The notes under the pieces were generated by a model that searched no databases, was not told the origin of the DNA, and was given only the letters and a program-made list of their open reading frames with translations. DNA of 64,000 nucleotides from Dillenia suffruticosa (lineage: Eukaryota; Streptophyta; Magnoliopsida; Dilleniales; Dilleniaceae), in the NCBI GenBank assembly GCA_033439265.1, contig JAVTVX010000010.1, forward strand, positions 15,159,490-15,223,489, written 5' to 3'. The translations under genes and the position numbers were made by a program. Below are positions 19,186 to 58,151 of the stretch, in pieces; the stretch's first letter is position 1; each line of letters begins with the position of its first letter.

Positions 19186-19225
<40 letters not shown>

Positions 19226-19405: not shown

Positions 19406-19461
<56 letters not shown>

Positions 19462-23811: not shown

Positions 23812-23995
23812 TTTTTTTTTTTTTTTTAACTTGTCATTAATTGGTATCTGAATTTTGTTTGATTAATACTATCTGAATACTATGGGACCTTTGATGGAGA
23901 GATTGATTTTTTTAAATGTTATTTTTTTTATTCTCATGATTTGAATCTGAGACTTATAGATAAAAGAGCGATAACGTTCGATCGCTACGTCTATA
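23812..23995 (-). mobile_element. SINE (family A), older copy
   Basis: It begins with a long poly-T run and carries ggtatctgaattttgtttg and gattaatactatctgaatac, the 3' core of family A on the minus strand. I see no convincing target-site duplication, so the right edge is approximate. Confidence 0.5.
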
Positions 23996-24743
23996 TACGC
24001 ACAGAAGCTTGGTGGAGCGGAAATTTTGTGGGGGCAACATTTATCCCAGGTCCAGGTTGCGACCGCCATCATCCTAGTTCAAACTTGAGGTTTGTAGGTA
24101 GCGTTTGGATCATTCTTTTCCATGATTATGAGTTGTGAATTTTATATTATTCTACTTTATAAAATTTTATAAATGAATATAAGGTGGGTATTATAATAAA
24201 ATTTAATAGATGCAATCTCTACTGCAAAAGTGGTCACAATAAGTATGAATGAAAAGGGTTAGATGGACATACTAGGTGAAAACTTCTCTACCTTTAAAAG
24301 GCAGCTAGGAGTCGTGTACGACATTAATTTGATTGTAATATTAAATCTGGTTTTTCAACCAAAAGATGTCCGATTTTTCTTTCTTTCTCTCTTTCTTTCT
24401 TTTTCTTTTCAACCATGTATTCGATCTTAAATATGCAGCATTTCAATTATTTATTTTAATTTTTTTATTAGTAAAATTTGTTAAGAAATAAAGAAAATGA
24501 CAGGAATTTTGAAAAAATATTATTATATTTATAACATTTTTATATTAAAAAGACGAAATATCTGCTTTAAGTGAACCTCTTGCTTTTACAAATCAAACAA
24601 TTACAAATGTTGGGTTCGAGGGAGTCCACCTCCACCGCCTCTCTTTTCTCCTATGAAAGCAATAAATATAGCATATTGTTCAATTCATGCATGTTATTTG
24701 ACTGTCGAGAGATCTGAAAAAAAAGACCCAACAAAGATGTTGT

Positions 24744-24778
<35 letters not shown>

Positions 24779-24780
<2 letters not shown>

Positions 24781-24978
24781 CATGTCTTAGACACCGGTAT
24801 TTGAGATTTCACCCTGATTAATCTGGACCGACCACTGCAGTGAGTCTTTTCAGAGGGTGGGTCTCCCAACAGAGAACGCTCCATACACACGAGAGTCCGA
24901 TACTTATAGCGGGAGTCAAATCTCGGTCATGCTTAAGCGTACTCAACCCTACATCTAATTGAGCAGACCCACATTGGT
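24779..24978 (-). mobile_element. SINE (family A) with (GA)n in place of a poly(A) tail
   Basis: A well-preserved copy: on the minus strand it starts near CCAATGTGGG, has an A-box-like region and a B-box-like GAGATTTGACTCCCGC, and ends at CATGG as the 28-kb copy does. Where other copies have poly(A), this one abuts a (CT)17 tract at 24745-24778, that is (GA)n on the element's strand. Either it inserted into a microsatellite or its tail was replaced by one. Confidence 0.75.
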
Positions 24979-25929
24979 TCTCTCTCCGCACATTTTGACA
25001 TTTCATATGAACGGCAATCATGCTATTCAAATCAAACAATAATTGTATTCTTGGATGTGTGTTATTTATCATTATCCTGTTTTTATATAGTTTACGCACA
25101 ATATTATTTTCATCGAACAATCAAACAATTACAAGTGATATAAAGATTTTATATGCATGTCACTCTTCTTTTTAACTCTGAATTTCATAACTTAAACCAA
25201 TTATTGCAATTGGTGTGGCCATGCCATGTGACATTCAAGATTTCTACTCTGTTGCAGATATGATTTTATTCTATTATTCCCCAAAACCTCTAAAACATGC
25301 AATAATTTTCAGTCATACATATGAACATAATAATTGATTTCTTTAACTTTTACTTATTAAAAATAAAATCTACACTCCTTGCAACAAGTGCTTCATTTTA
25401 GATAATTAACCTAAATTGTACAAAATAATTGTGCCTTAAAATTTTAGTTAAAAGAATGCTAGAGAACTATAATTCCAATTATTGTTGGACATGATCGGTT
25501 GATATACTAATGTCTATCTGGTTCAGTGGTTGGATGCTGATATTTTTTAAACAAAATCTCGGATATGATTTTGCATATGACGAAAACAAGTGTCGGGAGA
25601 GATTTGCCCTTTAAAGATCTCAACTTGACTCGAATCGAATTTAATTGAATTTAATATAGTTACTTAATACTATGATTTATAAAAAAGGAAAAAAGGCATG
25701 ATCAGCTAACTAATTTATACACACATGGATTTTATACCAAAAATTCAAAGAGGAAAGAATAATTTGACATTTCCACAAATTGGAACCAGGTTACCGTATA
25801 TAATAAACAAGTATTATTGCAACATATGATCCCCGGGGGGGGGAGGTGAATTCTTCTACGGATCGCTTAGCAACTCTGCACCGTAGTATTACAAGAGAGC
25901 CCCCAGTTTGCACCAACATTAGAGGAAGA

Positions 25930-26295
25930 TTAATCTCTCTCCTCCCATCTCTCAGCCAAAATCCTCTCAAGCTCGACTGGTCTACAAGGGACGGTCAGTG
26001 CACCTTCATGATCAAAACCATACACTTCAGCTGATTGTTCAAGTAGTCTCAAAAAACCAGGATGTGTTAGATAACTCAATGGCACCACAAATCTTTTGGG
26101 CTCGTTAATGTCATCCACAGCAATCACTGCAAAGTGACCTTCTTTTACATCCTCTGGAACATAATTTGTCTCACAATCTTCGAAATTTGTCCATGATTTT
26201 TTCACTAGTGAGAGACTCTTTTGCAACACCTCTACTACAATTTTGAGATTCACAATGCCATTTTTCTTCTTAGCATTGCTTCTATGCCTAGCCAT
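25930..26295 (-). CDS. SAUR-family auxin-responsive protein
   Basis: A single intronless 121-aa frame, as usual for SAUR genes. A basic N-terminus is followed by the SAUR core: VPEDVKEGHFAVIAVDD, then PKRFVVPLSYLTHPGFLRLL, then EQSAEVYGFDHEGALTVPC and a short acidic tail. SAUR proteins are small, auxin-induced regulators of cell expansion that in the studied members inhibit PP2C.D phosphatases at the plasma membrane; that role is family knowledge, not visible here. The frame is open upstream to 26397, but the TATA box at 26397-26406 overlaps that longer start, so the methionine at 26295 (MARHRSNA) is chosen. The exact SAUR number is not assigned. Confidence 0.92.
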   Translation of the reverse strand: MARHRSNAKKKNGIVNLKIVVEVLQKSLSLVKKSWTNFEDCETNYVPEDVKEGHFAVIAVDDINEPKRFVVPLSYLTHPGFLRLLEQSAEVYGFDHEGALTVPCRPVELERILAERWEERD

Positions 26296-26396
26296 ATTTT
26301 GCACGCCCCTTTTTTTGGGAAGGGGTTGGGGGGTGTTGTAGTTTTGGGTAATGTGTATATGCTTTGAGTGTGTTACCAACCATATGCCTGTTTGCA

Positions 26397-26406
26397 TTAT
26401 ATATAG
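26397..26406 (-). promoter_or_regulatory. TATA box of the SAUR gene
   Basis: The minus strand reads CTATATATAA, about 100 bp upstream of the chosen SAUR start at 26295. It fixes transcription start near 26370 and so excludes the upstream in-frame ATG at 26397. Confidence 0.7.
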
Positions 26407-27829
26407 TCAGCGAAAGGAGAGTCGGAGAGAGAAGGCGTATGGTTGCCTTGCGGGAGAGAGGGAGAGAATGAGCAAAAAAGGACGTGGGTCAGACTGACAT
26501 TGGTGTAAATATGGGAGACCGGTGCATGTGATTGAACCGTCCTAGAGTTCATGTAACCTATGAAACGTCCCTTTAGATAGTCTTGTCAAGTCTTTACAAT
26601 TTATCAATGTTATTGTCATTAGCTGTGGCAGCCCCTTCCTTTCAACTTACTCAAAATTGTTTGAATTGGCTTCCTCCTCTCGCTTACATAACCTACAATT
26701 GTTGTTAAGAGAATCATGGGCGATTATGCTTATCCCTTTCTTTTAATTCTTGCACACGACATACTTACAAATTTGTGTTAAGAAAATATTAAATATAACA
26801 CACAAGGGGTATAGAGAGACCGGAGTTATAATTTTCAAAAACATAAATAATTTATTTGAAGAATTCCAATGGCATTTTCAAAATATTGAACTGTATTTCT
26901 TAAAATTTTAATTTTTTTTAAAATATTTTTAACTGTATTTACTGAAATATCATAAAAAATATACACAATAATTTTTATTTTTTAATTTGGGGAGATGGGG
27001 ATTTTTTTTAACAATACTACCTATTAAGTCAGTTCTAATTTTATAACAAGAATCATCAGCTACCCCATAATTAGCCTCAAATTAGAAGTGCAAGAGGCGA
27101 CGATAGGGCATGATAGTTAGCCATGCATTCCAAGGTATTATTTTTATGCAGATTGTTCAGAGAAAATACAATATGTATTAGGCAAGCACATAAAAAGAAA
27201 TCACCACTCCTCCATAGCTATGCCCCGTCTCTCTACCTTCAAAATTTTAATTATAAAAGTGCAAAAGTCAAGTCATATGGGACTATTTTTTTTTTTTAAT
27301 AAAGTCAATATTCAATATAATTTTTTACAAGCCAAACTATATGGTTTATTTTCTTTTAATTCAAACATTCGAATTAGTTCTTATGTGGTAGGGCTCCACA
27401 CAAGTGCTTTGGGAATATATGTCCATTAAGGCATGATCAACGTTACGATGAAGTACTCTTGTTGTTTGCTTTGCAATTTTCTTAACAATGGGTTTTGATG
27501 TTTTCGCTGGAAACAACATTGGAGAAAATTGGAAAACATCAATGGTACGATAATCACACAGGGTCACATGCAGTTGCATGGTGCACATTACAGAAAAATG
27601 TACCCATATGATCATGACCATAAAACTAGCTACAACCTCCAAGCGGACGGCCGAGCCAATGTTCGATCAAACAGAAGAAAACAGACAATTATTTTTATTA
27701 TAATTATTAGAAAAAAAGAACAATGGTATGGCAAGGGCAACACCTACACACACTCACTTTATGACTTTATGACACAAATGATCACGTTGAAGTTATCATC
27801 AGCGAATCGACTAATAAATAAAGATATCA

Positions 27830-27976
27830 AATCTTTTAATTAAATTTAAAATTTAAAATTTAAAAATAAAAATAAAAAAAAATTATTAAGAGAACTTTTT
27901 CTAAATTGAGACCGATAATACTCAAATTAAATTAATAAAAATATAATTTTGAATATCGATTAGTTATAAAAAAAAT
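27830..27976 (+). mobile_element. Probable decayed SINE (family A)
   Basis: A plus-strand copy judged from the block caaattaaattaataaaaat followed by tttgaatatcgatta and an A-rich tail at about 27968. The 5' half has turned into simple AT-rich sequence; the boundaries are approximate. Confidence 0.4.
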
Positions 27977-28220
27977 TATTATTCATGAAAACAATTATCT
28001 CTCTCTCTCTCTAAATCAGCATAAACTCACAAGATTTTATAACCTATGTTTTTATTGTTGAGTGAAATAATTTCTATGCAAACATTATTGTTAAATCTTA
28101 AAATTAAAATTTAAAGCATTGTGGGCAGAGTTGTCCACGTGGGCAGGCGGCCTCAGCTCGGTTGAGCTGAAGAAATAGGGGGCCCCAGCTAAGCCCTATT
28201 GCCAATTTTAACCCAATAAT

Positions 28221-28435
28221 TTTTTTTTTTTTTGGTACCATGGATACCGTCCGTTATCCAGAGATTCGTCTCAATTAATCTAAACCGACTGCTACAGTTG
28301 CGCCTTTCAGAAGGCTGGTTTCCCAACGGAGAATTTTCTATACATATGAGGGCCTGATACTTCCAGCGAAAGTCGAACCTCGGTCATACTTAAGAGTACT
28401 CAACCCCATCTCCAGTTGAGTCAACCCACATTGGT
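28221..28435 (-). mobile_element. SINE (family A), best-preserved copy, 12-bp TSD
   Basis: A 215-bp minus-strand SINE. On that strand it runs from ACCAATGTGGGTTGACTC (A-box-like region) through GAGGTTCGACTTTCGC (B box of the pol III promoter, near 28367-28381) to CCATGGTACC and a poly(A) tail (poly-T at 28221-28233). It is flanked by ACCCAATAATTT at 28211-28222 and 28436-28447, partly merged with the tail. The A and B boxes show that the family derives from a tRNA. I cannot name the family. Confidence 0.88.
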
Positions 28436-29039
28436 ACCCAATAATTTATTTACTTTATACATTTTTTTGGTTAATCTCCTTTGTGTCCTTCGAAAAATGT
28501 TAGATAGTACAGAATTATATGGAATTAATTTAATCAAAGTTATTATTAATTTTTGAAGTATAAAAATAGTCATCGCATGAAAAATTCTTCTATTTTTTTT
28601 TTGTTTTTTAAAAAATAGGCCGGCCTGGCGCAGCACAGCCCTAAACAGGCTTAGGAGACACGGGCTGGGGGCTTTTACTATATGGGCTCAAAAAGTAAGC
28701 CTGGGAATATAAGAACTTGTGTAACAAACAGGTTTTTATTTTATTTTATTATTATTATTTTTTTTTAACTAAGTTTACTGTAGCCTTCCAAATAAATTAG
28801 ATAGATGTTAAATATGTGCATCTTTTGGTTACTAATCATTGGCTGCAAATATATATATATATATATATATTAGTCCCTGAATAAAACCTTCACATATTTT
28901 TTTCTTTTCATAAAAGTGCAGGTGGTGGGGGTGGGGCACTGGCCATTGGGCTCTTTCGTAGGAGTTTGGGTTGGGCCCCCACGGCCCGAATGTGGATGAT
29001 GAAAAGTTCAGTCAAGGGGCCCATTTTTGCAAAACAAAA

Positions 29040-29243
29040 ATTTTTTTTGATACTATGTTTTGGATATTGCCCAGTATGCTGGGTTTCGTCTTGATTAATC
29101 CGAACCGACCGTTACAGTGGCTCTTTTCGGAAGGCGGGTCTCCTAACTGGGAACACTTCATATACATGAGGGTCCGATACTTTTAATAAAAGTCAAATTT
29201 CGATCATATTTAAAAATATTCAACCTCACGTTCAATTTGTTAA
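29040..29243 (-). mobile_element. SINE (family A) with 15-bp TSD
   Basis: A 204-bp minus-strand copy with a T-run at its left edge, flanked by TTTTGCAAAACAAAA (29025-29039) and TTTTGCATAACAAAA (29244-29258), one mismatch. Its core matches the 24.8-kb and 28.2-kb copies more closely than the others, so these three look like one younger subfamily. Confidence 0.85.
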
Positions 29244-31017
29244 TTTTGCATAACAAAATCTACAAAACAAAATCTTCACATGCAATTGCTCTCTCTAGCC
29301 TTCCTCACTGTAGCGCCCGCCAAACCCTATTGGGTTGAGTTGAGCTGGAAAGCACCTCCCAAAAAGCACACGGTCGGAGCATGATGATGTGGGCATGTTC
29401 TTTGGCTATTATTAGATGTCATCTTTCTCTCCCTTTTCTCTCATAGGCAAGCATATTTGCAGGTCCAGGACGGTTCAAGTAATAGAATTTTTTTATTTTC
29501 TTTCTTCTTTTTTTGATTTAAATCTGGTTAATTATATCTTATTGTATCAAAAATAAAAAAATAAAAACATATTTGCGGGAGTTAATGTTGGCAACATCTT
29601 CCAATTTTATATTTTAGTAATATACTAGAGAAATCTGAAATGCAGAGTTCAACGTTATCATGGTAGGCGTTGGGACCCCGCATGGTTGTATTATGCGACA
29701 AAATGTTTTGCTGGTAAGTATCTTGGTTGGCTTCTTCAGGTCTAATATCTGCAGGAATTTTTGGGATCCTCTCCTGTTTTCCTTTCCACTTTCCTTTTGG
29801 GTCTTTTCCGTGTTTCGAGTTTTTCTGCCTTCACCTTTTCCCCAGGGTCCCTTCATCTCTGATTATCCTCTCCCTGTTGAGTCGAGTCTTCTTCCTCAAG
29901 CGGAGCCCGTTGAGAGTCTGAAACTCGTAAAGGATAGCGATCCCTGTGAGACAATGGTAGAAATTTATCTTCTTTTTACTTAAAAAATTCTTTAAACTAT
30001 TGCGGCTTAATTCAAAATTTTATATTAAGGGGCAAAATTTGAACATATTATAATTTAAAAAATAAATAAATAATATTTTAAAAGATATTAACAAATATTG
30101 TTAAGATTTTTAACAATATTCATATAATTATAGCAATGTTTGTACAATCTAATGATATTTATTAAATTACCTTAACAAGTATATATATTAAATTTTATTT
30201 TATTTTTTAAATTTAGGGGCAGCTTCCCTCTTAGTTGCCTCTGGTTCCTTTTTTCATTTAAAAAGAAATTATAAATTTTAATGAGTGAAAAAAATTACAG
30301 ACATTTGTTTACACCAAACTAAAATTCTTATTTAAAAGACCTTAAACTTATTATGTAAATAAAACCATTGTGCTCGAAAATTTTAAAATTACATCGAAAA
30401 AAAAATACTTATTATCCATAAAATTTCTCAATTTTACATCCAAACACCTTCTGTACTTATCATCTTGACTTGTTCACTTATTGTTGATGGATTAGCAACG
30501 CCTTGACCAAATGCCTTCTATCCTACTCCATACACGCACTTGAGAAAACCTGGAAAAGGCCCTGAGAACCCGTGCTAAGGGGGACTACAATATTATATAT
30601 ATATACTAAAACCCAAAAAAAAATATATTATATATATACTAGAAGTCATAATGAGAGAGATGAATATTATAATTTTAAGAAGTAAAAAAATATATTAAAG
30701 TTTTAATTATATATAATAAATTTTTCTTAAAATTTCCGATCTGGGTCAACCTTGCCTGCTCCTAGTTTTAAAGATTTGCACAAAAAATTTAACGGATAAT
30801 TCTACGAAATCCAGGAGACAGATATGACGCTTTCCTTTTTGTTTCTTTATTGTGCTTAAAATGAGAAGAAAGGAAGATAATGGAAGGTAGAGTTTTCACT
30901 AGCTTCACATCACCATAATCAGATAGAACCCCCGGAGCATCTCTCGAGAACGAAATTCAAAATTCCTGAGACTAAATAAATCTCAAACTCCTGAGCCGAT
31001 GAAAATACTTTAAATAC

Positions 31018-31090
31018 GTTGGCAAGGGATCACTGTCCCCTCCCCAACCCATATCCGAAGTTCAAGTCTCTATATCACCAAAAAAAAAAA
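31018..31090 (+). mobile_element. Short tRNA-type SINE (family B) with about 17-bp TSD
   Basis: A 73-bp plus-strand element with a C-rich middle, a B-box-like GAAGTTCAAGTCTC near 31056-31070 and an A11 tail. Flanks are gaaaatactttaaatac (31001-31017) and gaaaatacttttaaatac (31091-31108), a duplication differing by one T. It shares the C/G-rich TCCCCAACCC block with the copy at 35843-35930. Confidence 0.75.
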
Positions 31091-32128
31091 GAAAATACTT
31101 TTAAATACCTTATAATTAGACCAATATGGGGTTGACATGGCCATGCATCAGCGATTTAAACGAAGTATTCAAAGGACTCAAAATTTTAGTGAACTTGTGA
31201 CAGTGGGGACGAAACTTGTCTACAAAAGCTCATGAATGATAGTGAACAGCCCCCCCCCCCACCCCTTCAAATAATTGAAAAAGGGCCGTGATCTTTTGAC
31301 CTATTGCTATCAATGGGTTGGCACTATCAAATGTCAGCAACTTTTCACGTGAAAAGGACAGAATTGGTCCTAAATCAAGATGCTAGAGAAACAGCGAGGA
31401 AGGAAAAAATATTCTCATCAAATTAACAAAAGTACATCGGGATTTAAAGTTGGTGTAGTACCTTATTTTGGGGCAGTAGTCCCAGACTTATGCCACAACA
31501 ACCCGTATGAGTACCGTGGCACCACGTTTCACAACGGAAACCCCCTTTCACTGTACGGAGAGATGCGACAGAAGCAGCAATTCGTTTCTTATAACTATGG
31601 ATAAGGACCTCATAATGCATGATTATAAAGATGTCTAGCTTTGATTTTCAATCGATTTGACTTCTTTTTGCTAGAAAAGTCGAGAGAGAGAGGGGGGGGG
31701 GTGGAGAGAGATATTTTAACCCTTATCAATGATTTCATGTTTTCGATGAAGTCTCCGAGAGTGCAATTTTTCTTAGAATTGATCGAGTTGGGGTATAACT
31801 TATCCTTTTGTTTTCAGACGCTTATACATAACGATAACAAGAGAAATAGAGAGTTCACGCCATTTTGTTACCTGAACACCGGGTGTTATCATCATGAAAA
31901 GAGCAGAAAGTCCGAGAAGAAAACCGCGTAATGGCCAGTGACATTTTTCCTGTCTTTGGGGACCGAGTGCAACGCTATGCTATTTCCAACTTGAAAATAA
32001 AATAATTCTGATTCTCTGTCTGGCCACAATTTAATCAAGCGACGTCACCCCCCAATATGTGAACAAAACGATTAGTGAACTGTGGGGTTACCTCAAAGAA
32101 AAAGTACCAAGAAAGACAAGAAAGGTAC

Positions 32129-32310
32129 ATTTTTACCTGTTACATCTTCCATGAAAGCGCTCTCTTGAGCCTGTGCAGCCACTACATGCCTTACATCAAC
32201 AAGATAAACATCAGCACTTCCCAATTTAACCGCTTCTGCATCAGAAAGTCCCAGATCCGATCTACTTTTGGCTCCAGTTTCAGACCATCCAACAGCCCCA
32301 AGTCGTGTCT
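32129..32310 (-). CDS. Unidentified exon-like coding fragment
   Basis: The frame reads RLGAVGWSETGAKSRSDLGL then SDAEAVKLGSADVYLVDVRH and VVAAQAQESAFMEDVT, a protein-like composition with no low complexity. It sits between a possible acceptor (ggataggcag) and a donor (GTAACAG/GTAAAAATG). I do not recognise the protein and found no neighbouring exons in phase. It lies about 580 bp beyond the dolichol kinase stop on the same strand, so it could be an exon of a separate gene, a displaced gene fragment or an alternative 3' exon. The exact ends are uncertain. Confidence 0.3.
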
Positions 32311-33829
32311 GCCTATCCAATCCAGAGCATGTGTAGGTCCGGCCCTTTAGAGAAGACACAACAAAAGGTCTTAAAAGGCGCAGAGGCCTCAAACCCATCT
32401 GGGATTGGAACATTAAATCAAAACAAAAAAACTTTCTCATCAACAAATGCTGAATGAATACCGTATAGTCTCCTGCACCTTAAAAAGATTAGCAGTTACA
32501 TTAATAGAGGTTATCCACAATTACATAGTGATAATAAACACATCCACAGAAAATCGTAATTGAGAAGGTTACAGATGTGGTAAGAAAATTTTCCCATTTT
32601 ATTCAAATACCGATGCCTCACAATCAGGATGATCTTATTTTCCAGTCATATTTGCGGAGCTCTGTTACAAATCTATCCTACCCTGAAATAAGGCACAACA
32701 AATATCTATATTATCTACATAAGTCCAGACTTTGATGATGATGTGCACTAAACTACTATCAATTGCTTTGTATCTACATAACTTCAAAAATTGTAATCCG
32801 TGACATAATGAAAAATTGTAGTTAATTTCCCTAGTGCAGTCTGTAAATTTTTGTCAGTACTTGTATTCTTCAAGTCCCCACCAGCAACATCTACAAACAG
32901 AGAAGACTGTAGAAAACAAGAGGTATGAATGCATTGTCAAGTTGTGCTGTGTAGGCCTCCTCCAACAAGCCGCTTGCAGTCACAGCCCCAAAAAGTGAGA
33001 CCCAGTGCTGCTTATTTGACAACAAACATAACAAGCATTTAACAATCCCATGTGTCACATTCAAAATATTAATCTGAAGCTCAAGCTAATCATATTGAAA
33101 CTGACCTAAGCATTATTGCATAGGTTGGATTAAATTATTAAGCTTTGGCTCGATAATATTCTGTGTACATAGATCTAGAAACAAACGACAAGTCCTTTGA
33201 GCAGATGTCTTCATGTTCCATGTTGTACCCAAAACTAGCAAAATGTTCCAGGCGTTATTATAACTTCTAAAGTAAATTTCTCAAAAATGATTACTTAATT
33301 ATTCCTTGCAGCTGCTGTTACATCACAAAGGTTCTACATCTTTGTGGAGCCAAAACCGTTATATTTATCATGGATCTGCTATTTCTAACAAGGTAGTCCA
33401 GTATCATGTTTGAAAACAATACGCTTTTTGTTTCACAAAAACGCTATGCTCTAGCCTAGACTTTTGAGTGATAAACTGATCATGCAATCATTTGGCACAG
33501 CTCCCTTCATGTTACCAAAATAAAAAGAGTGTTGGAGTTCATATCTTCCCACCATATCTGATGATACTGCTCTGTAACTAGTGTCTTTAAAAGGAAAACT
33601 TGGGCCATTTGACCAATCCCACAGAACCCTACTAAAAGTTTCTGATGAGCTGAGCACAACAAAAGATTGGAAACCTAAGCTAGGATAAAAAGACCCATGA
33701 AAAAAACTCATTTAGGCAATCCAACATGATGCCTAGGAGTTCTTTAACAAGAAACTCTCACTGCTCTTACCACTTCAACCAGAAAAAGGGGGGACGAAAC
33801 CCGAGGCCTCCTCAAAAGAAAAGAAATAG

Positions 33830-33930
33830 CTTCTTTTTTTTTTCATTTTTTTTTTAATAACCAGCCTGTTTCTAGAGCCATAATTCGATTAATCCGGTCC
33901 GAGCGTTATTGGATCCAATTTAGGGGGGTC
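33830..33930 (-). mobile_element. SINE (family A) remnant in dolichol kinase intron 13
   Basis: Two poly-T runs are followed by aattcgattaatccggtccg and attggatccaattta, the family-A 3' core on the minus strand. It is truncated: the tRNA-like half is not present. Confidence 0.5.
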
Positions 33931-35842
33931 TGTCCGTATGCAAACACATGCACAATACCCTAAAAGGAGGATCAAGATAGACATGGAGCATGGAAGCAGA
34001 AACAGTAAAAAAGAAGAAACAAACCTGGGTCAAGATGTATCCAGTTGATGCAAGAAGGGGAAGGAGGACAAAACAAGCAGCCAAAACAGATGTTATACCA
34101 GCAGCAGTACCTTCAACAGTTTTCTCTGGCACGCATAAATTTATTAATTTATTGATTTTTATTTCAACAGGTTGAAGATTAAAAAAGAACTGCAGTATTA
34201 AAAAAAAAGATAATTACTGCCAGTTTTGCTCCAACGAAGAACACCATATTTGTAGCCAACAACTGAAGCCCAAAGTTTGCAGAAACATAATAAAAATCAA
34301 ATTGAGAGAAAGCATAGATAAGGGAATTAGAAAATAATCAACAGGCATATGGAGATTAAAATTAATTAAATTCTGGAGCACTAAACAGCAGGACATGATT
34401 TATTAATCAGAAGTATATAGAAATTAAGGATGAAATGAACTTAAAAAATGGGGAATCTCCGCTTAGTAGTTAAAGAGTATTTTGATCCTTTGCAAGAAGA
34501 TACGCCACAAATGTACCTGCAAAGAGGAGTCTGATACAAGTATTTTGAAGACAAGTATAAGAAGAGAGATATGGATAAAATACTTCTAATTAGAATGAAA
34601 TGGCACTGAAATTGAATTCTAGTGTTGCATAATGCTGACCAATGGGAGATCATAGTTCACAAAACTCCCCTCTACTTATAGGATTAAAGATATTTCTGGA
34701 GTTCAGATTAAAAATATAACTACACAAATTTCACGTAACAAGATACCCCTGGAAGAGAGAAGATATAAATACATTATGTATATTCTCATATTACCCAGAT
34801 TAGGTAAGCTATTTTGCTGATGTTTCGTATAGCATACCAAGAAGGACAGACTAGCACAGGGATATATCTATCCAACAATATCACAAAAAATAGCGTGGCA
34901 ACCAGCACACTCACCATGGTGTCACCTATCCCAAGGCTCAAAATTCCAGCAAAAGGGGCAAGTGGTCGATCATTGAATCCTGAAGACATCCAAATGGGAA
35001 GGGCGCATCCCAGCAAGAGTGAAAAATGGCTGTGTCCAGCAATGATATCCGGAGAAGAAATTAATGCATATTTAGATAAGAAGTATGCAAGTTAATGTTT
35101 AGCTAATATGACAATAAGAAGTTCAGAGTCACGATGGTCTGTAAAGGCATTCATAAATTGATGCACGAGTGGTCCCAAAGGCCATATTTTCCATACCTGT
35201 AAGAAATAATAGAGCTATTCACTGAACCAAAGCATGCCAAGGAGACAACAATGAGATGATGCAAACAATCATAACAAGATCCAAGCAAGTGCAATCAACA
35301 ACAAATGTAAGTGGAAAATTAGCAGACACAAGGAGATATTATTGAATAAAATATATAAGTAGGCTTGTCAAAGGACATTTTGATGGTGCCATTAGGCTAG
35401 ATTATCGTCTTATTTTATCAATGATACTTGTAGTTACATTGTTGGGGTCAAGCAACAATTTGAATTTTAATTCAGTAAAATGTCATTGCTTTGTTGATTA
35501 TTACTTTTGAATGTTGGTGAGGGAGCTTCTCGATGGGACAAATTTCTGCACAAGGAGTGATCTCCATTATCGGCATATATTAGAGAAAACAAGTGTGTAC
35601 ATTCAGTTTCTCATGAATTTTAGTGAAACCCAGATTACATAAGAAATTTCTACATATCCATGTCAAAACTGTAAGTGTTAGGAATGAGCTGATTCTTTGT
35701 TTCTTGTGTATCACTCACGTACAGACTCGCTAAATATGTATGATAATTAGATGAATCTAATTGCAAAAGACAAGGTCAATATGATGCGTATGTAAGCTTT
35801 TAGTGCTGAATTTCAAAATATGCAGGTACATCTCCATATGCT

Positions 35843-35930
35843 CTTTTTTTGTTGGCTGCATAGTGATTTGAACCCTGGATCTCAGGGTTGGGGAGGGGGG
35901 ATTTGACTACTAGACTATCCCCTTGGGGAC
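35843..35930 (-). mobile_element. Short tRNA-type SINE (family B) in dolichol kinase intron 9
   Basis: An 88-bp minus-strand element with a B box AGGGTTCAAATCAC, an A-box-like GATAGTCTAGTAGTC, a CCCCTCCCCAACCC spacer and a short A7 tail. It is flanked by GTACATCTCCATATGCT (35826-35842) and GTACTTCTCCATATGCT (35931-35947), one mismatch in 17. The compact tRNA-head-plus-tail structure and shared spacer group it with 31018-31090. Confidence 0.8.
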
Positions 35931-38900
35931 GTACTTCTCCATATGCTAAAGCACGATATCCACAGGCGGAGTCCCTGAAATCCATCCTTCACACCAAAGG
36001 GGTAATTTAAACCTTCAACCTAAAGAATGAAGAAGCCAGCAAACAGCAACTTATTGTGCAAAGGAAAAATGGATAGCAACCATCAAACAGCATCACAAAA
36101 AGCCATTGCCAAAGTAAGAGTTCAAATGGTATCATTTTATGTTGGTAATGGTAAATAAACTCCTTATGTTTTGCTAGCCAAATGGTACGGGTCATCCTTC
36201 TCAAAAGACCTTCCTGCAAACCTATTTCCAATAGCTAGATACGTGCTGCCTATAATGAGTTCTTTTTTTTATATCTTAAAGCTCCCATACAAAAACAAAA
36301 TCAGAACCTATTAATACCTTCTTTGGATCTCTCAAGTGAACGGAAGGGGAAGGGAAGTACTTCCATGATGTTTGGAAGTTTAATGTAGTTATTCAAGGTG
36401 AAAGGGAAGTCTCAACTAAAAAGAGGCAGACATGGTAAACTATGATGCATATTAAAATAAAGGGCACAGTTGCAAATACTAAAATTCTCAATAAATGGAA
36501 TTCCATAAATTCTGATTTATTTAGCAATAGATGCATGTGAATGTGTTTCTCAGCAATGTGTATGTGGGCATGTGTAGAAAAGAAAAGGGAAAAATAAATA
36601 ATTGTTGTGACTTTCTCTGCTTTGTGGTTAGCCTAGAAGAATTGATTGAGTCAAAGGTCCTTGACAACTAGAAAAGGCCCTCTCATTGGCGTATAAACTT
36701 CAAATTAGTATGTTAACTGTGCTTGCAAAGTTATTGCTTTTGCAAAATTTCTGTTTGGTACTAGGAAGTGCTTCTACAGCATGTTGCACTACCTCAACAA
36801 ATTTTTTTAAGGGAAAAAGGGAACTATTTGTGCTTTCATATCATGTGATAAACATATAAATGCAACAGAAATACTAACCAGCAAAATGCATATTAGTATG
36901 ACTATCAAACCAATAAAACCTTAACCAGTTCCAGGCAACCATATTTTGAACAATAATATCCAAAAATAAACATCAAAGGAGACAACAATTAACTCACCCG
37001 TATTATTTCTAACACCAAAAAAACCGCAAGAGCTGCTCCAAATGCTAAATCAAGAAATTTGGGCTGGAGATTGAAGTTAAGTTAGCAGAAATTTCATGCA
37101 AATCTATAATGAAATGGAGTAGTTATTAAAAATGGATGATGTGTCACACTCATATCACCTGGTAGATAAGAGCTGGTAAGAACATTGAAACAGCCATTAG
37201 ATGGTAGTACTTGCGGAGAAGAATCCTTTGAATCTTTCTGTTCTTTGAAATGTTGTAAAAGCGTACAACTGACACACAAATGACAGCAACCCAATAGAAA
37301 CATAATGATAATCTCTTTAATGGATCCGAGAAAACAAACATGAAAACCCTGTCTACAACAATATGGAGAAAAATTCTTAAGATAAAATCTTTTTACTATA
37401 AACGCTATGAATTGCATTAGCTTGGTGCTTGCAATATGTATTTTCAGGTAATCACATGGAAGATTTCATTTACAACTAGAACCTTCCCATGGACACTGAG
37501 TGAGGGCATAACATCAAATCAAACAATCAAACGGTAGTTACTTCCAAAAAGTTGGTTCTTTTGTGTCATGGAAAATGGGTAGTCATACGTGGTCAAATTC
37601 ATATAAAGATATTTTAATTACTTGTATTTTAAAAGAGGCATTTTGAGGAAATAAAGTGTGAAATGGCCCCAAAACATACACCGCATCTTGGCTTTATAGG
37701 ACAGGGCAGTGACAGGAACCAAAGGCACATCCTTCACACATGTTAAACAACATGCATTTTCAAGACAAATAGGATACATGCAAATCCCCATCAGCAAACT
37801 GTTGTAATTACGAGGGAAATCTAGCAGCTTAGGCTAGTTACACCAATTTTCACATTAAAACCATGAAAATATCCATTCAACATGGCAAGATCCATGAGCA
37901 CTGCACAGAGTATTAAATTATAAGCTCATTTCATTCATACCGAACAGTGCAACGAAATGATATGGCGAGGGCAAAAGGAAGTAAACTTCAGCCAAAAAAG
38001 AAAAAAGTACCATAAGAGTGGATGCACAGGGAAAATGTGAACAAACTGCATCCAGGATGGAATGATAAAAGAGAAAAGCCAAGGAAGAATAGAAAATTAG
38101 AGCCCTATGGATCTCATTATGCGAAAATGCCCCAAGCAATGTCAGCCTTATGAAGCACCCCCACAATTTTGTAATGGGTACAGCTAATACTGGAAAAAGA
38201 AGAAGGCCAACCTGCATCCCCTGCATGAGAGAAGGACAAAATGGATTAAGATAAAACTTCATCAGTGATGATAATATGAATTTGCTCAAACGAAACATAC
38301 CTGGATAATGACACTTATTTCACTTCTTTTAATTCAATAATCAAAAGCCAAAACTGGTGTTGAAGAGTTTCTTTGAACCTGTTCCAAACTGACTGTTAAA
38401 CATAAATCATATACTAGCCAAAACAAAGGAAGTAGCAGAATCCAGATCAGAGGAAAACCAACCTTTGAAATTGTATATGCTAACATGTCACCAAAATAAA
38501 GAATAAGGCCAGCAGTCACCAAAAGTGCTTCTCCTAAAAATAGAGAATAATCCATAAATCTGGTGGGAACAACAATGAGGACATCTCTGAATAAGTAATT
38601 GGGCAGAGAATAATGCATAATAACAAGAGTTCCAATCATGTATGAAACAAATTCCAACAATATAGGTCATCAAAACAAGGCAGATATGCATAAATTGGGA
38701 TCCAAGTCAGGGAAATGAAGTGTACAAGTATAAGCTTTATACATTGATAACTGATCATACAAGCAAAGGCTCATGAACTAGGACTATTAGATGATTAAAA
38801 GCACAACCAGGAATACCAGAAATAGCACGTGAATCTTAGATGGTGTGAGTTCTGTTAAGAAGACCAGTTCACGAAAACTGTACTTTCAAAATAATGTTAA

Positions 38901-40533
38901 TGTGCAAGACCTATGACTGTCTTCATTCCAGGTTTATGGAAGTTTACAACTTAATACTAGTCTAATTCTTAAAGTTTACAGCATGGTAAGAAATTACCAC
39001 AAGTTACAATAGAATATCAGGCATACCAATGGATGCACATGAAGGAAAACTGTGAAGAAGATGCTGAATTAATTTCACTGCAGCAAATCCATGGCAAAAT
39101 ACCCATAAAAGTTTCAGTGCTGTTTGCATCCCTGCAAAGATACAAGTGCATAACCATCTATAAATGATCGTAGTAAGGTAACAATAAAGATCAACAGACA
39201 CTCAAAAATCAACAAATAGGTTAAGGAAATGATGCTATGTGAAATCTTCTGTATTTTTTCTTCATATCCTGACAAATGCAAAGTTTCTCATCAATTTCAA
39301 AATGGCAAACTTACCATCTTGAGTTATTGTAGCAAGAGACATACAGCACAATGTTGAGTCGACTAGTAAGCAGCATAATATGATCTTTGCATACCAACTA
39401 CTACAAAAAGACAAGCAGCTTGAAGCGCATGATGACCACCGGATCACGAAGAAAAGGAACACAAGAACAGCAAAACAGCTGACAGAAGTAAGCCAGTATT
39501 GCACTTTTAAATATTCTGTCAAGACAACTAAAAAACCAAATAAATGCATAAACCACACAGAAAGACAGAACAAAATGACTCGAGAATATTTCAAGGAAGG
39601 GTAGTTAACCCAAAGAACTTATCCTACTCAAACTTAAACCCAATTAATAATCAGAAGTGTTTTACCATAAGCACTGACAAAATGGAAGAAAGAAAGAAAC
39701 TTCCAACTACATCATTTTGCTTGGAGTAGTGTTAATCCTCAGGGCCAGAGCTGGACATGGTGCTGGCACACTTTTTTATAGTTTGGCCCAACAGGCAAAT
39801 GCCATATTCAACTCGAGTGCTTCTCAAGAGAAAAAGCGTTTCCCACACAAATTAGTTATCTATAGTCTACACCCGAAGTGCCAAGGACTCTCTCCTTTAA
39901 TCAACCATACCCCTTACAGTAGAGCATGGAAATTTCTTTATTGCCTTAGTATTAATTTGTTTTCGCATGTTATAAGGACATTAAAGATGGGTGCTTAAAC
40001 ATGGAATTTGTAGTTGTGTTCATGTTTGTAGAAGTAAAGGGTAAATCAAGACGTTAGACAAAACAAATCAATTACCATCGACATCATAACTTCACCTTCA
40101 AGTCCAACTTCATTCAATGAAAATGCTCTCCGCAACTGTATCAATTTTGAGATAATAACGGTTGGCAATGTCACTGCTCCAAGTAGCAACCCTGACGATA
40201 CACCCGCCCTAAAAAGAACCCAAATTTTATCACGTATCTCTAAAATTTCAATTAGAAGGTCCCAAAACACAAACCCTAAATATCTGGAAAAGAAACCCTA
40301 GACAATTTTGGAGAGAGAATGAGAAGAAGAAATACAGACCTGGTCTTAAATTGGGTGAAGGCTAGTGAGGAGTCGACGGTGATCTCGACGAGGAGGCCGG
40401 CGAGAGCGAGAACGACGAGAGCAACGGCTTCGTAGAAGAGAGAGGCAGGAATGGAGAATAAGATGCGTGCGACGAAGAGAAAGACGACGGCTCTCTCGCC
40501 GTTGAACAGTATCGAAGTCGTTGACAACGCCAT

Positions 40534-41500
40534 CGTTGGCGTCGATCTGAAGAATTTGAAATTGATCGCCGATAATCTGTGTTCCGATCGTTTATCGTCT
40601 GTCGTAAAGAGAAAGAAAAAACAACGGCTAATTGCCAGTCTCGAGAAAACGCGTGAAGAAGACGTAGTTGTTTCCTGCTGGCCGGACTAGGGGCGTGTTC
40701 ACCAAGTACTATGATTTCAATAATATATGGACACATATTTATTTCGGAGATTTTATTTGATTCAAAAATTAAAATTAAATTAAATCAAATTGAGAAAAAA
40801 AAGCATATTAAAATTTAATCTTTCTAATTAAATATTAATACTAATTAATCGTACTTTGTAAGTTAATCAAAATGAAAACTGGTGATTGTTCTCATTGAGA
40901 TCAGTTTCTCTTTGAAAAGGCTGAAAATTTGGGACATCCTTATTGTTCTTTCTCATGACGTATGATCTTTGTTTCACTCTTGACCCGGTCAATGGTTTAA
41001 TCGTAGAAACCAAGAACCTAGTCCTTAGGGAAAGGTTGGTACTAAAATGGGCATGACATTAGGAAAGGAATCATCCTCCGGTTAATCTCTTACCATGGTG
41101 GGACATCCTTGAACTCTCAAAGAGCATAAACATTTTTAGAATTGGTCGGGACCTCTCACCTTGATCGCGGTATATTGAAAAAGTCGAAGATTCAAATGTT
41201 ACTAATGAGTTTCACAAGAGTTTTGATGATAAATAGATGCGAGAGAGAAATTTTGATGTAGAAAATTAGTTTAAAATATAAATAGAGAAATTAGAAATTT
41301 ATATTAAGAGAAAAAAAAAGTATAATATTGTGGGGTAAATAGGAATAGAGGTTATACTTTTTAAGAAAGAAATAACTAAAAAAAATTTTAATGGTCTCTT
41401 TAATTATAATGTCGTTTTTAAGACTTTTAATGTTTGAGCTATTATTATTATTATTATTAGATTTTTTCTTCAAATAAGAGATGAGCTATTTAAAGAGTAG
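40534..41500. other. Intergenic: dolichol kinase 5' flank
   Basis: No gene is seen between the dolichol kinase start and the triplicated region. The stretch is AT-rich beyond 40740 with an (ATT)n run at 41441-41459. The first 150 bp would be the dolichol kinase leader and promoter. Confidence 0.6.
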
Positions 41501-41514
41501 AAGGCTTGGGCCTG

Positions 41515-42237
41515 AAAGGCCTGAATGTGTAGGTTGGCTTGTCAAGTCCAACTCCCGGGCACTTTGTATGGGCGTTGCTGGGATTTTTCATTCCCTTCGA
41601 ATGCCTATTTGGACCCATTAAGCAAATGCCGGGCGGGCAGGCTTGGGCAAGAGTTGGTCCAAGCGGCACACCCATGGAATGCTCATTTCTAGAGCATCGT
41701 CAAATTTGGGGTTATTCTGTGCTAAAAAATAAAAAGCATCGGGTAAAGGGTTGTGACCCGGCCATATGATAAATGCCAAAATAAATAGAAGCAAGCAAGG
41801 GTGATGTCATCTCCACATGCCTGTTTAAATAGAATATTATACTTTTTGGTGGTGGATTCTTCACCCAACAACCAAAAAAAAAAAAAAGAAAAGAAAAACC
41901 AGGGTAGAGAGAGAGAGAGAGAGAGAGAGAGAAGGGTTTGACCCGAATGCGTAGGTTGGCTTGTCAGGTCCAACTCTCGGGCACTTTGTATGGGCGTGGA
42001 TGGAATTTTCATTCCTTTCAAATGCCTATTTCGACCCACTAATTAAGCAAATGTCGGGCAGGCCAGCTTGGGCAAGAGTAAGTCCAAGCGGCTCACCCAT
42101 GGAATGCTCTCCTCTAGCTGCCATATGATATTTGCCAAAAAAAATAGAAGCAAGGGTGATGTCATCTTCACATGCTTGTTATTATAGAATATTATACCTT
42201 TTGGCGGTCGATTCTTTGCCCAACACCCAACAAAAAA

Positions 42238-42268
<31 letters not shown>

Positions 42269-43120
42269 GAGGCTGGGGATAGAGAAGAGCCCGGGCCGGT
42301 TTGGGCCCGAAAACCGGCCCGGAAAAAACCCGGCCCGTGAACCGGCCCGGTGCTACAGTCCCCCCGAACCGGACCGAACCGGGGGTACTGTAGCGGCGGG
42401 CCTGTTCAAGGGTTTTTGGAACAGTGAACCGGCCTGGAACCGGCCCGGATATGGAACCGGCCCGGCCCGGCCGGTTCCAACGGCTCTTTGACCCTTTTTT
42501 TTTTGAATTTTTTAAAAAATTTCCCCCTCCTTGTTTGGCCAAACCGGCCCGGCCCGGTGTGGACCGGCCCGTCGGTTCCGGTTCAGCGGGCCGGGCCGGT
42601 TCAAGCAAAAAAAATTTTGGAACCGGCCCGGCCCGCGGTTCCTGGAACCGCCCTTGAACCGGCCCGGCCCGGCCCGGTTACATGTCTAGCTGGGGATGCG
42701 GAGGTTGGCCTGTCAGGTCCAACTCTCGGGCACTTTGTATGGACGTGGATGGGATTTTTCATTCCCTTCGAATGCCTATTTCGACGCATTAAGCAAAAGC
42801 CGAACGGGCTAGCTTGGGCAAGATTTAAGTCCTATGGTCACCCATGGAATGTTCACCTCTGGAGCATCGTCAATTTTGGGGTTATTATCTTTGCTGTTAT
42901 CTTTGCGCTTGGGGCAATGATGCAGCCAGTGAGGTAATAAGCGTGGCACGTCAATTGCTTCGCTGAAAACTTATTTTGGGGTTATTGTGAGTTAAAAAAA
43001 AAAATGAGTAGGTGGTTTGGGACCCTACCCATATGATAATGCCAAAGAAAATAAAAGCAAGGGTGATGTCATCTCCACGTGCTTCCTTAAATAAAACATT
43101 ATACTTTATGGTAACAATGA
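41515..43120. repeat. Three diverged tandem copies of a promoter-like unit upstream of UGT86
   Basis: Unit A (about 41515-41930), unit B (about 41936-42279) and unit C (about 42689-43120) share, in order: a start near gtaggttggc, tccaactctcgggcactttg, cattcccttcgaatgcctat, cacccatggaatg, a gggtgatgtcatctccac block with a CRE/TGA-like TGACATCA core on the minus strand, and an AT-rich TATA-like end (aaatagaatattatac). Unit B lacks an internal segment of about 75 bp. Units A and B end in (GA)n tracts. Unit C leads directly into the UGT86 leader, so the array looks like an amplified UGT promoter. A hAT-type element separates B and C. Confidence 0.8.
42280..42688. mobile_element. Non-autonomous hAT-type element, GC-rich, 409 bp
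   Basis: Termini are TAGAGAAGAGCCCGGGCC (left) and the inverted TAGACATGTAACCGGGCC (right), 13 of 18 matching, flanked by the 8-bp direct repeat GCTGGGGA at 42272-42279 and 42689-42696. An 8-bp duplication and TA(G) ends are typical of the hAT superfamily. The interior is packed with AACCGGCCCGG-type subterminal repeats in both orientations and a short AT-rich centre, with no transposase, so it would need a partner for movement. Its GC content stands out sharply from the flanks. ORFs read from it are repeat artefacts. Confidence 0.82.
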
Positions 43121-43310
43121 GTTGCCAAAAATGGGATGGTTACAAGAGTGGACTAGGGCAGTAGAAAAAGGAACCGAGATAAAAGGCATCTTCCCACCCA
43201 ACACTCCCGGACAATATCCAAATCCTCTCTCTCTCTCTCTCTCCCTCCCTCCCTGCCTCCCTTCCCCTTCCTCCTCTCTCTCTTTCTCTCTCCAAAAACC
43301 TTGGAATAAC

Positions 43311-43837
43311 ATGGAAGGAAGCGAAGCAAAGCCTCATGCAATCTTAGTAGCATACCCATTACAAGGTCACCTAATCCCAAGCGTGCATCTAGCCATGAAG
43401 CTAGCCTCCAAAGGTTTCGCAATCACATTCATCCACACCCACTCCGTCCACCACCAAATCACCCGAGCCCACTCCGCCGAAGACCGTGACTCCGACCCAT
43501 TTACCACAGTCCGAGGCTCCGGCCTTGACATCCGGTACATGACGGTCAGTGATGGGCTTCCGTTGGACTTCGATAGGTCGCTTAACCATGACCAGTTTAT
43601 GGCGTCCTTGTTGCATGTGTTTTCAGCCCATGTTGAAGAAGCGGTAAAGATGATTCTTAAATCGGGTCGGGTCCACGTTTTGATTGCGGACACTTTCTTT
43701 GTTTGGCCGTCGGCTCTTGCCAAGAAATATGGTCTGCTCCATGTGTCTTTCTGGACAGAAACTGCTTTGGTTTTTAGTCTCTATTATCATCTTGATCTTC
43801 TCAGAATAAATGGTCATTTTGATTGTCCAAGTATGTA

Positions 43838-43880
<43 letters not shown>

Positions 43881-45165
43881 CAAGATGCTATTGTTTTTTC
43901 ATTCAAGAAACCAATAGATCAAGAAGTTAGGAATCAAGATTATTATTATTATTATTATTTGGTTTTCAAGAGAGGCTATAGGGGATAAGGAGAAGGAAGA
44001 AATAAAGAAATACTGGAAGTCTCAATAATGAGAGAGGAATTTTGACCACCGTGATCTAAATTGAAGGCCATTGCGATAACAACAAGCCTTTTTTTTTAAG
44101 TTTTTTTCTTTTTCTTTTCTTATGGTATAGAAAAAAGTAATCATCGTTACATTATAAATATCTTCTATTGTTTAACAGTATTGCTGATTTTGTTCTTGAT
44201 TGATGTGAAACTAAAATTATTGCGATTCATTGTGTTCAGATGCACGCGAGGACACAATAGATTACATTCCGGGGGTCCCATCAATCAATCCAAGGGACAC
44301 AATGTCATATCTTCAAGAGAAAGATACAACATCAGTGTGTCACCAGATCATCTTCAAGGCCTTCCAAGATGCTAAAGGTGCAGATTTTGTTCTATGCAAC
44401 TCAATCCAAGAACTTGAACCTTCAACAATTGCTGCACTCCATGCAAAGAAGCCATTCTATGCGGTCGGACCCATTTTCCCGACCGGGTTCACCAAGAGTG
44501 CTGTGGCCACGAGCCTATGGCCCGAGTCAGACTGCACCTCGTGGCTTGACGCCAAGCCTCGTGGGTCAGTGCTCTATGTCTCATTTGGTAGCTATGCTCA
44601 TCTTAGCAAAAGAGACCTCACAGAGATAGCCAATGGTCTTTCACTTAGCGGAGTCAGCTTTGTTTGGGTACTTAGACCAGACATTGTCAGCTCCGACGAG
44701 GTGGATCCATTGCCAGTTGGATTTAGGGAAGAAGTTGCTGACCATGCGATGATCATAAGCTGGTGCAGTCAGAAGGCGGTGTTGAAGCATCCTGCAATCG
44801 GAGGGTTCCTGACTCACTGTGGATGGAACTCAACACTGGAAAGCATTTGGTGCAAGGTTCCATTGTTATGTTTTCCTTTGTATACCGATCAATTCACAAA
44901 CCAAAAGTTAGTGGTAGATGATTGGAAAATTGGGATGGGAATCGGGGAGTTAAAGACCGTGACCAGATCAGAAGTTTCGGTGAAGATCAAGGCTATGATG
45001 AGTGGGAAATCCGGGGAAGAATGCAGGAAGAAAGTGGTGGAGATGAGTCAGATCCTGGAAAATGCAATATGCAGGGACGGGTCATCGGAGAGGAACATGG
45101 ATCGGTTCATCAAGGAACTCAATGCAAAGACACAAGACATCTGGGGTCCACACAGGTTCACATAA
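43311..45165 (+). CDS. UDP-glycosyltransferase, UGT86A type
   Basis: Two exons, 43311-43830 and 44240-45165, join in phase (CPN-AREDT) to 481 aa. The N-terminal half has the acceptor-binding fold with the catalytic His in PLQGHLIPSVHLA (about residue 20) and the activating Asp in VHVLIADTFF. The C-terminal half carries the plant PSPG box beginning WCSQKAVLKHPAIGGFLTHC, then GWNSTLESI, ending LYTDQ; the final Gln is usual for enzymes using UDP-glucose. Overall it matches family 1 UGT86A1/A2, cytosolic enzymes that glucosylate small molecules; the substrate cannot be read from sequence. The single intron is in the position conserved in plant UGTs and starts with a (CT)n tract. The frame is open upstream of 43311, but that extension is (CT)n-derived. 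The last codons and stop lie in a 104-bp tandem duplication. Confidence 0.95.
43842..43877. repeat. (CT)n microsatellite in the UGT intron
   Basis: About 17 CT units start 12 bp after the splice donor at 43831. An (ATT)n run follows at 43939-43960. Confidence 0.9.
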
Positions 45166-45361
45166 GAGTGCTGTTGCTAATCCATGATACTGCTCTAGAT
45201 AATTGTTGTTCCACCATTTGAAAGATAAGCATGACACACTGTCCTTTTTCGGTGGTGGGGTTCACATAAGAGTGCTGTTGCTAATCCATAATACTGCTCT
45301 AGATAATTGTTGCTCCACCATATGGAAGATTAGCATGAGACACTTTCCTTTTTCGGTGGTG
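45155..45361. repeat. 104-bp tandem duplication across the UGT86 stop codon
   Basis: The block starting GGTTCACATAAGAGTGCTG occurs at 45155 and again at 45259, and runs to ctttttcggtggtg in both, with a handful of mismatches (for example ccatgatac/ccataatac, cacactg/gacactt). The first unit contains the last two codons and stop of the UGT gene; the second is entirely in the 3' UTR. Confidence 0.9.
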
Positions 45362-45658
45362 TCACATGGGACCCACGTCTCATGTCGTCTCTGCAGAAGA
45401 GATGGCAGGACATATAGTCATGGCAAAATGATAAACATTCTAAACTATTCTAAAAGTTGTGCGTGGATGGAATTGCATCTAAAGGTTGCCTCGGTGACTC
45501 CGTGCTCAATTTCAAAAGTGCTCGCAGTACGATATAACTTGACCAGAATTATTTGTCCCATTTTGCATTTCATCATCTAAGACTTCATAAGTTGTTGACC
45601 ACCGAGCATAAACAAATGTTGGCTGAGATCAAAACTGCAATGTTTGCATCAGCCTCAT
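45362..45658. other. Short gap between convergent UGT86 and ABCG3 3' ends
   Basis: UGT86 (+) and ABCG3 (-) converge here; the two stops are 493 bp apart. Nothing else is visible beyond 3' UTR sequence. Confidence 0.7.
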
Positions 45659-46041
45659 TCATCCTGGATTGTTTGTATTTTGTTTACAGTGGAAAAGTCC
45701 ATTGAGGGATATGTTTTTTCCAACCCGAAAGTACAACAATGCAAATGCAAGAATGCGATAACCTACAGCCATTAGAAACAATACCAGTAAATTCTCCCAC
45801 TTGGAATTACTGTCCTCAGAAATGTCGTAGGTGCTGCGAACAGCCTGAAAACCAGATATGCTTCTTACTTGTCCAAGTGCAAACGAAGTCCCAAGGTATT
45901 CATTCTCCAACATCCCCTGGACAACATGCACAGGCAACATTCAGGATCAATTTCAGAACTATTTCAGAATCCATTCTTAACTTACTAAATGTCCTGATGA
46001 ATGTTCAGCAACCAAAATATGTGAATTTGGCAAAGCAAAAT

Positions 46042-46076
<35 letters not shown>

Positions 46077-49000
46077 AAATTTATGAGGTCAAAAGAAGAG
46101 AAACAAAGCACTGGAATACAACAAAGCAATGAATCAAGAAGATTTCACACTTTGGCATATAAGAATGGGCAGAAAACATCGGTAAATTTAGCTTCACTGC
46201 TTCCCCCCGCCCCCACCACAAAAAGAGGATTTGGTTAAAATTGTTGGTAACCGACACAGAAGACAATGCTATTCAATGGCTTCATAACCTCTTGAAGCTA
46301 TAAGTAAAACAAATGTGGGAAAACATATTCGTTTCTTCATTTACCCTTTTTCTCAATCAACTCTCGTCAAATCTTACCATTGGATTTTAACCAACATTTT
46401 TACCCACCAACATTCTATTAATCTCCAAAGTCCTTACCTGAATCGCATAAGTATGGAAAGCAATGTAGGATAATGGGTACATCCACACTGGTTGGGGCAA
46501 GTCATTTCTTATTCGGAAGTATCCTGCAGAAAGCATCATTACTACCTAAAACACCATCAGAAAAACAATGTCAGATTAGGAAATGCTACTGAATGCTGAG
46601 CAGCGGAGATTATTATTATGGCCTAAGAAATTATTGAAATCACCCATTGTCTACGAGAAATCACATGAAAATGTCTTCTTCACAGGCCAAACCAGACCTA
46701 ATAAAACTGTTCCCGCCAGGCAATCTCATAGGTCTACTTAATTTCTTTTGGATAAAAGCTTTTCATTTATTAGTTTTCTGAAAGGGGAGATCCTCTGAAT
46801 GCGCTCACCAGAAAGGGAAAAAAATAAAAAAATAAAAAGGAGACAAATTACAAACAAAATGTACTGTTTTCTTGTTTATCCTGTCAACAACTAAAACCAA
46901 TATTTCGCCGATCAAAGCAGTATTCAAAGGAGGTTGTTGATATAAAAAGAGACTCACATGAATAAACACCATAGTCAAGATGCACCAAAAGACATCCTGC
47001 CAAATGGAAGCAACAACCAGCAGGATTCCTTCATTCACCAAGAGGCACATGAAGAAATTCAGCACAAAATACATTAACAGGCTGAACTCATCTCGCAGCC
47101 CTATCAGAAAATAGAAGACCAGACTTGAAGATATGGCAATGAGGAACAGGAAAGGAACACTGGCAAGAAGATGCCCCAGCAGAAAAACAAATGCTCCTGA
47201 ATGCTGGTTTGATTCTTCACAGGCATATATCTGGCATCGGAAGCAGACAGTTTGGATAAGCCATTGACAAAAAAAGATTAGCAACAGCTATTATATGGCA
47301 TGTGAAAGAAATTAATTAGAGCTTTTATGCATTATTGCTACTTCAGGTAAACTAATTCATATCATTTGCTTTGAACGTAATGCCAAGAGAAACAAAGACC
47401 ATGAGAACACCAACACCTGACCCGTGTGATAAAAACAGATAATCCACATGTAAAAAACTCAAACTAAGGTTCGTTGGATCGTTCTCTATCATTCCACTTC
47501 AATCTCCCCTCCAAGCTCCTTTGAGAAATGTTGGGCTTCTAAAAATACAATAAAATTGGAAATGGGTATCTGACTCTATCAGGCATGTGACAGCTTCATT
47601 TTGATGTTACTATAGCAACTATTTGTCATGGATAACTAGAGAATAGCATATATCCGAGAACCATGGAGAAGAGAATACTATATGGTCCTATGGTTTTATA
47701 GAATGACATGGGTGAGAACCCAAAAATCAATGGAATCATAGGTTTCATCACTTGATATCTTATGATGCAGGCAAATATTTTTTATTATATTAGACTTTGG
47801 TGTCTCCACTAAAGATGTACCCCTGTTCCCTAATACCAAATTTAAAAAAAAAAATGATTTAAAGCTAAAAAAGTAGTGGTCCCAGAAATCAGCATTAAGT
47901 ATCTCTTCCTTGATCTCAAGTAGGTGGTCGTATTTGCTCCAATTTGCATTAGTTCATGCTCATAATTTCAGCTCCAACTCTTCCAAATGAACAAAATGGC
48001 CCCTGCATCACATTGTGCTTCAAATTCATGCTCTCCATGATTTCACAATGCAACATCATAAGAAGACAAGCTAAATTTTTTGGCAGATGCATTGATATTC
48101 CCATGAACTAAGAACCACACTATTTCGTCATGATTTCCAGTTGATCATACGTTTTGGGAGATTACTACCAAGAAGTTAGCCAGTGGCTTTAACTGATAAA
48201 GCAATTGTACATTTGAGACATATGCATGACAATTGATTACCTTAACTTCTTTCATATGCGCAGGCACACCAGCAATGCTTAGAAGTGATGTAAATGACAC
48301 AAAGGCAAATATAGCTGCAACTCTTGCCTGTAATTAACAGGTGAAACAATGTGTTAATGAATATGAATAAGATAAAAAAATGGATATGCATAACATAGTT
48401 GCAGCTCAAACCACATAGATAGAATTAACTGAGCCCAATGAAATAAAGTGATTAGACGCATGCAGTTATATTTTGAACAGTTATGAAGCTGCTGCAATTT
48501 GCTTCCAGATTAAAGATCAGATTGGATTATTCAATCCAATGGAAGAATGTGACAAATGGTAGAATTCATGTAAATAGACTTATGAAGTTGACAACAACAG
48601 GCCTATTAGCTTAGTTGGTTAGAGCATCCTGTCAGGTTCAAGACCTGCATGGGCTAATTTCTTTCGACTCAAAATTTTTTCCCAAAAAAAAAAAAAAATC
48701 TTTTCTCTGTACCATCAATAAAGAGGAACAACAGAGATAGATAGAGATGGCTTGCCAGTTGTGGTTGGTGTAGCCTTTTTTTCTTTCAAAAAAAGAAATG
48801 GGAATTAAAATAAAATAAAAAAAAAAGAAAAGTGATAAAGCTTAGAAATGGAGGTAGGAATCTAGTCCCCAAGTATCAGCCTTCTACAGTTCCGCAACTC
48901 TCTTTCAAATCCACTTCTCACATAATTCCAAACACGCATACACATGATAATATAATTCCAATTAACAAAACTTATTTTCTGGGAACATTTTCTATTCAAA

Positions 49001-58065: not shown

Positions 58066-58092
58066 TGATGTCCTCGCACCCGATCTAACAAA

Positions 58093-58097
<5 letters not shown>

Positions 58098-58149: not shown

Positions 58150-58151
<2 letters not shown>

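Follow-up and report, generated by a model that had tools for sequence, protein, structure and literature searches.

The question this locus raises is why a plant should carry a broken copy of an essential gene. Arabidopsis EVN (EVAN/DOK1, At3g45040) is described as a single-copy gene whose loss kills the male gametophyte, and the available part of the same paper reports no obvious vegetative phenotype in EVN RNAi plants (PMC4412406). Leaky DOK1 knockdowns in Arabidopsis flower early, according to the available part of PMC5853391. In the 64,000 nucleotides of Dillenia suffruticosa DNA analyzed here, which we call the window, the corresponding gene is disabled in four places. The puzzle is solved because an intact second copy sits in the same assembly, indeed on the same contig (C10) as the window. 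We are highly confident, judging from sequence, that the window gene is a duplicated-gene pseudogene left by duplicate loss, the other copy having remained intact. Its features are as follows.

32891..40533, minus strand: probable dolichol kinase (EVAN/DOK1-type) pseudogene; 14 recognizable exons, aligned exon by exon with the intact copy
40340..40533, minus strand: exon 1; 194 nt, open
39315..39515, minus strand: exon 3; 201 nt (intact copy 207)
38301..38378, minus strand: exon 6; 78 nt, in-frame TGA at 38336-38334
38011..38220, minus strand: exon 7; 210 nt (intact copy 215), thrown out of frame by a 5-nt gap at 38069
35112..35196, minus strand: exon 10; final 4 coding nt and GT donor lost in a 19-nt gap after 35112
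34025..35029, minus strand: exons 11, 12 and 13; encode the CTP-kinase motif region (motif as given in the available part of PMC5853391)
34218..34269, minus strand: exon 12; GG at 34271-34270, where AG is expected
32891..33007, minus strand: exon 14; 117 nt, against 114 in the intact copy; in-frame 3-nt excess

An earlier note, made from the letters of this stretch, had described 14 ordered exons; alignment with the intact copy bears this out and shows them on the minus strand. The window copy keeps its introns, exons and introns alike aligning with those of the intact copy, so it is of the duplicated, non-processed type. Four disabling lesions lie in its coding sequence and splice sites: in exon 6, in exon 7, at the exon 10 donor and at the exon 12 acceptor. 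Three of those in the note are confirmed, with a new detail for exon 10. The TGA in exon 6 replaces a glycine codon of the intact copy, exon 10 (35196-35112) runs on into tcatatta with its GT donor falling within the gap, and the AG before exon 12 is indeed absent. For exon 7 the note was right that the frame is broken but wrong about the cause, which it took to be one base added to an exon of 209 nt; that candidate is ruled out by the length of the exon in the intact copy, which reveals a 5-nt shortfall with the same effect on frame. A further change is of another kind. Relative to the intact copy, a 47-nt gap at 39518 removes the exon 3 acceptor; alternative AGs ending at 39528 and 39516 preserve the frame of the exon, and the gap may be a tolerated change.

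Single-base homopolymer slips are a common error of long-read sequencing. The lesions are known from one assembly, and an error in that assembly or its consensus might be blamed for them, but we think this very improbable: the damage consists of two substitutions at critical sites and two multi-base gaps (5-nt and 19-nt) with no single-base homopolymer slips among them, and sampled neighboring genes contain 0 stops in 1695 window codons. The earlier note had gone further in claiming that the other genes of the window read cleanly. This holds for our sample of eight exon segments from six genes. We take the six to be a heavy-metal-associated protein, an ABCF protein, an ABCG protein, a SAUR, a UDP-glycosyltransferase and a nitrate transporter.

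To account for the damage the note had put forward a second intact copy (for example after polyploidy), a null haplotype or a faulty assembly, and had suggested a search of the whole genome; it is the first of these that the genome bears out. A DNA search of 596,357,000 bases in 37 contigs, with one short query of 301 nt from around exons 5-6, found two places, one being the window and the other C10:21945617-21945917, which is 92% identical. The gene at the second place occupies C10:21943559-21950542 and has 14 exons amounting to 1710 nt and 569 codons, with no internal stop and with GT-AG boundaries at 13 of 13 introns. With this intact copy in the genome, the window gene is not a unitary pseudogene, which would have no intact copy elsewhere. 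A gap near exon 2 had made the second copy a candidate for damage too; this is ruled out, the gap being intronic, with the donor GAAG/GTGAAG kept and the frame continuing.

Is it really a dolichol kinase? Arabidopsis DOK1 is a protein of 569 aa with the motif DxxAxxxGxxxGx8KKTxEG (PMC5853391, available part). The intact copy here shares both the length and the CTP-enzyme motif, which we read by eye in its translation as DTMASVVGYKYGVLRWSKTGKKTVEG, and these likenesses bear out the EVAN/DOK1 name that the earlier note had used. A Pfam profile search of the second copy's product gave no family at E 0.1 or better, and a search of solved structures gave three weak matches (best E 0.042), none of them named as a kinase. 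Because of this, the presumed identity rests on length, motif and the name given in the earlier note. The difference from Arabidopsis lies in number, with two loci here, one of them broken, against a single copy there.

The two copies of the gene belong to a much larger duplication.

6..64000, no strand assigned: duplicated block; joined to C10:21.9205-21.981 Mb by 50 collinear inverted matches, which take in 39197 of 64000 window bases

Plus-strand matches between the window and C10:21.9205-21.981 Mb were absent at E 1e-30, and 100 bases of the compared C10 block are unread. Seven stretches of at least 1.5 kb within the block are without a match. Since the collinear inverted matches span the whole window, we take it to be one of the two arms of a duplication, either segmental or of the whole genome, on the strength of the one block pair examined. 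Across the flanking gene pairs, pooled dS is 0.2165 and dN/dS 0.169 over 1678 compared codons, with dS for individual pairs ranging from 0.128 to 0.351. The kinase pair, compared over 561 codons, sits in the lower part of this range with a dS of 0.148 (0.110-0.195); its dN is 0.043, its dN/dS 0.289 (0.194-0.427) and its intron divergence 0.135.

In the second copy of the neighbors, six of the eight segments are without a stop and the other two have one stop each. That in the glycosyltransferase seems to be a natural end that comes a little sooner; uneven alignment lengths had hinted at a frameshift in this gene, which is ruled out, as the frame stays open and only the tail differs. We likewise considered and rejected a reciprocal loss of the nitrate-transporter-like neighbor, the one stop and the 1-nt gap in the second copy falling beyond the likely exon end, in the intron.

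The arrangement of the blocks on C10 is worth recording in its own right. Those at 15.16-15.22 Mb and 21.92-21.98 Mb are inverted on one 38.4-Mb contig, with a mirror axis at about 18.57 Mb, near its middle. The 37 contigs include 26 large ones (13-38 Mb), and 22 of those 26 measure 15-26 Mb; C10 is 38.4 Mb long and C12 37.8 Mb. When a 9-kb stretch at 14.80 Mb was compared with 30 kb at its predicted mirror place, a small sample, there was no match. C10, and perhaps C12 too, may be two related chromosomes that have fused or been misjoined in assembly.

Did the window copy die at once, or did it serve for a time? Between the two kinase copies, codon positions 1-2 differ at 49 of 1131 sites and introns at 619 of 4998 (Fisher p 1e-17). 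Had the window copy been unconstrained since duplication, at least 73 differences would be expected in those 1131 positions, and the probability of seeing 49 or fewer is 0.0017. These are pairwise differences, counted for the two copies together. The signal rests on exons 6-14, with 17 differences in 674 positions where at least 43.6 would be expected (P 4e-6), because exons 1-5 show no past constraint in the same test (32 of 457 seen, at least 29.6 expected; dN/dS 0.578). Most sharply conserved are exons 11-13, with 0 of 178 differences from the intact copy at positions 1-2 and 11 of 90 at position 3. These comparisons indicate that purifying selection went on acting on the window copy for some while after duplication.

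The number of lesions gives a rough idea of when that time ended. The introns show 82 gap runs alongside 619 substitutions; this indel rate, together with the chance of a stop or a splice-site hit, predicts some 21 (21.2) disabling lesions on a fully dead branch. Because there are four, we roughly estimate that the window copy died in the last 0.19 (0.05-0.48) of the time since duplication, an estimate that treats the introns as neutral and the two branches as evolving at the same rate. Rough as they are, the lesion count and the constraint test both support the earlier description of the gene as recently damaged.

So recent a death invites the thought that the broken gene is a null allele still segregating, with a working window copy in other individuals. 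The nearly unaltered catalytic exons and the small lower bound on the dead time, 0.05 of the branch, speak for this, but four separate disabling lesions along with further indels point to a longer neglect than one fresh mutation would; on balance we think it unlikely, though worth bearing in mind. It is in any case compatible with the loss of a duplicate and does not exclude it. There is also an outside chance that the loss is polymorphic among individuals or sister species. Were a relative to have lost the other copy instead, hybrids would have part of their pollen without the kinase, which pollen requires in Arabidopsis, and reciprocal gene loss would then act as a reproductive barrier.

Could the window copy still work, either spliced in another way or as a truncated protein? 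The absence of change at codon positions 1-2 in exons 11-13 might encourage that view, as might an unrestricted GT-AG splice search, which finds an open path 561 residues long with 466 of them identical. That path, however, places 8 of its 15 introns at non-orthologous sites and invents mini-exons inside intron 9. We take it as probably chance, because GT and AG are so common. A restricted enumeration allowed any of exons 2-13 to be skipped and every GT or AG up to 40 nt from an edge of exons 3, 6, 7, 10 or 12 to be used, with all other edges fixed; it yields no open path retaining exons 11-13. In its best path of any kind, exons 8 and 11 are missing and 405 of 569 codons stay in frame, whereas the intact copy, enumerated identically, returns 569 of 569. 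A gene that still functions is most improbable.

We return then to the loss of one duplicate. A block no shorter than 64 kb was duplicated, by a segmental or a whole-genome event; the window copy was held under purifying selection for a while and then lost function, and the copy at C10:21.94 Mb stayed intact, presumably supplying the plant's dolichol kinase. We infer that this second copy is expressed and meets the plant's needs, and we infer likewise the order of these events. The loss of the window copy is ordinary gene loss after duplication, and the result a fairly young pseudogene.

Duplicate-gene pseudogenes arise by fractionation after whole-genome or segmental duplication. The window copy is like them in its kept introns, its collinear neighbors, its past constraint and its later disabling lesions, and nothing we tested distinguishes it from them. 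The idea that some genes repeatedly revert to single copy is already established (PMC4092219, the available part of which does not mention dolichol kinase). Here, it would seem, a gene that is single-copy and essential in Arabidopsis is seen returning toward one copy after duplication, and the dead copy is fresh enough that every exon can be read and its loss roughly dated. For annotators the message is practical: to label 40533-32891 a working dolichol kinase is probably wrong.

Finally, the introns of the window copy hold some stretches of their own. At 35947-35830, in intron 9, is a 105-nt stretch absent from the second copy, in which box A/B-like segments, an A-run and, on both sides, the direct repeat AGCATATGGAGA can be made out by eye. 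ARAGORN called no tRNA in the window, and the stretch looks like a short tRNA-derived SINE. At 35774 and at 33934-33652, intron stretches of 312, 98 and 252 nt are likewise present only in the window copy.
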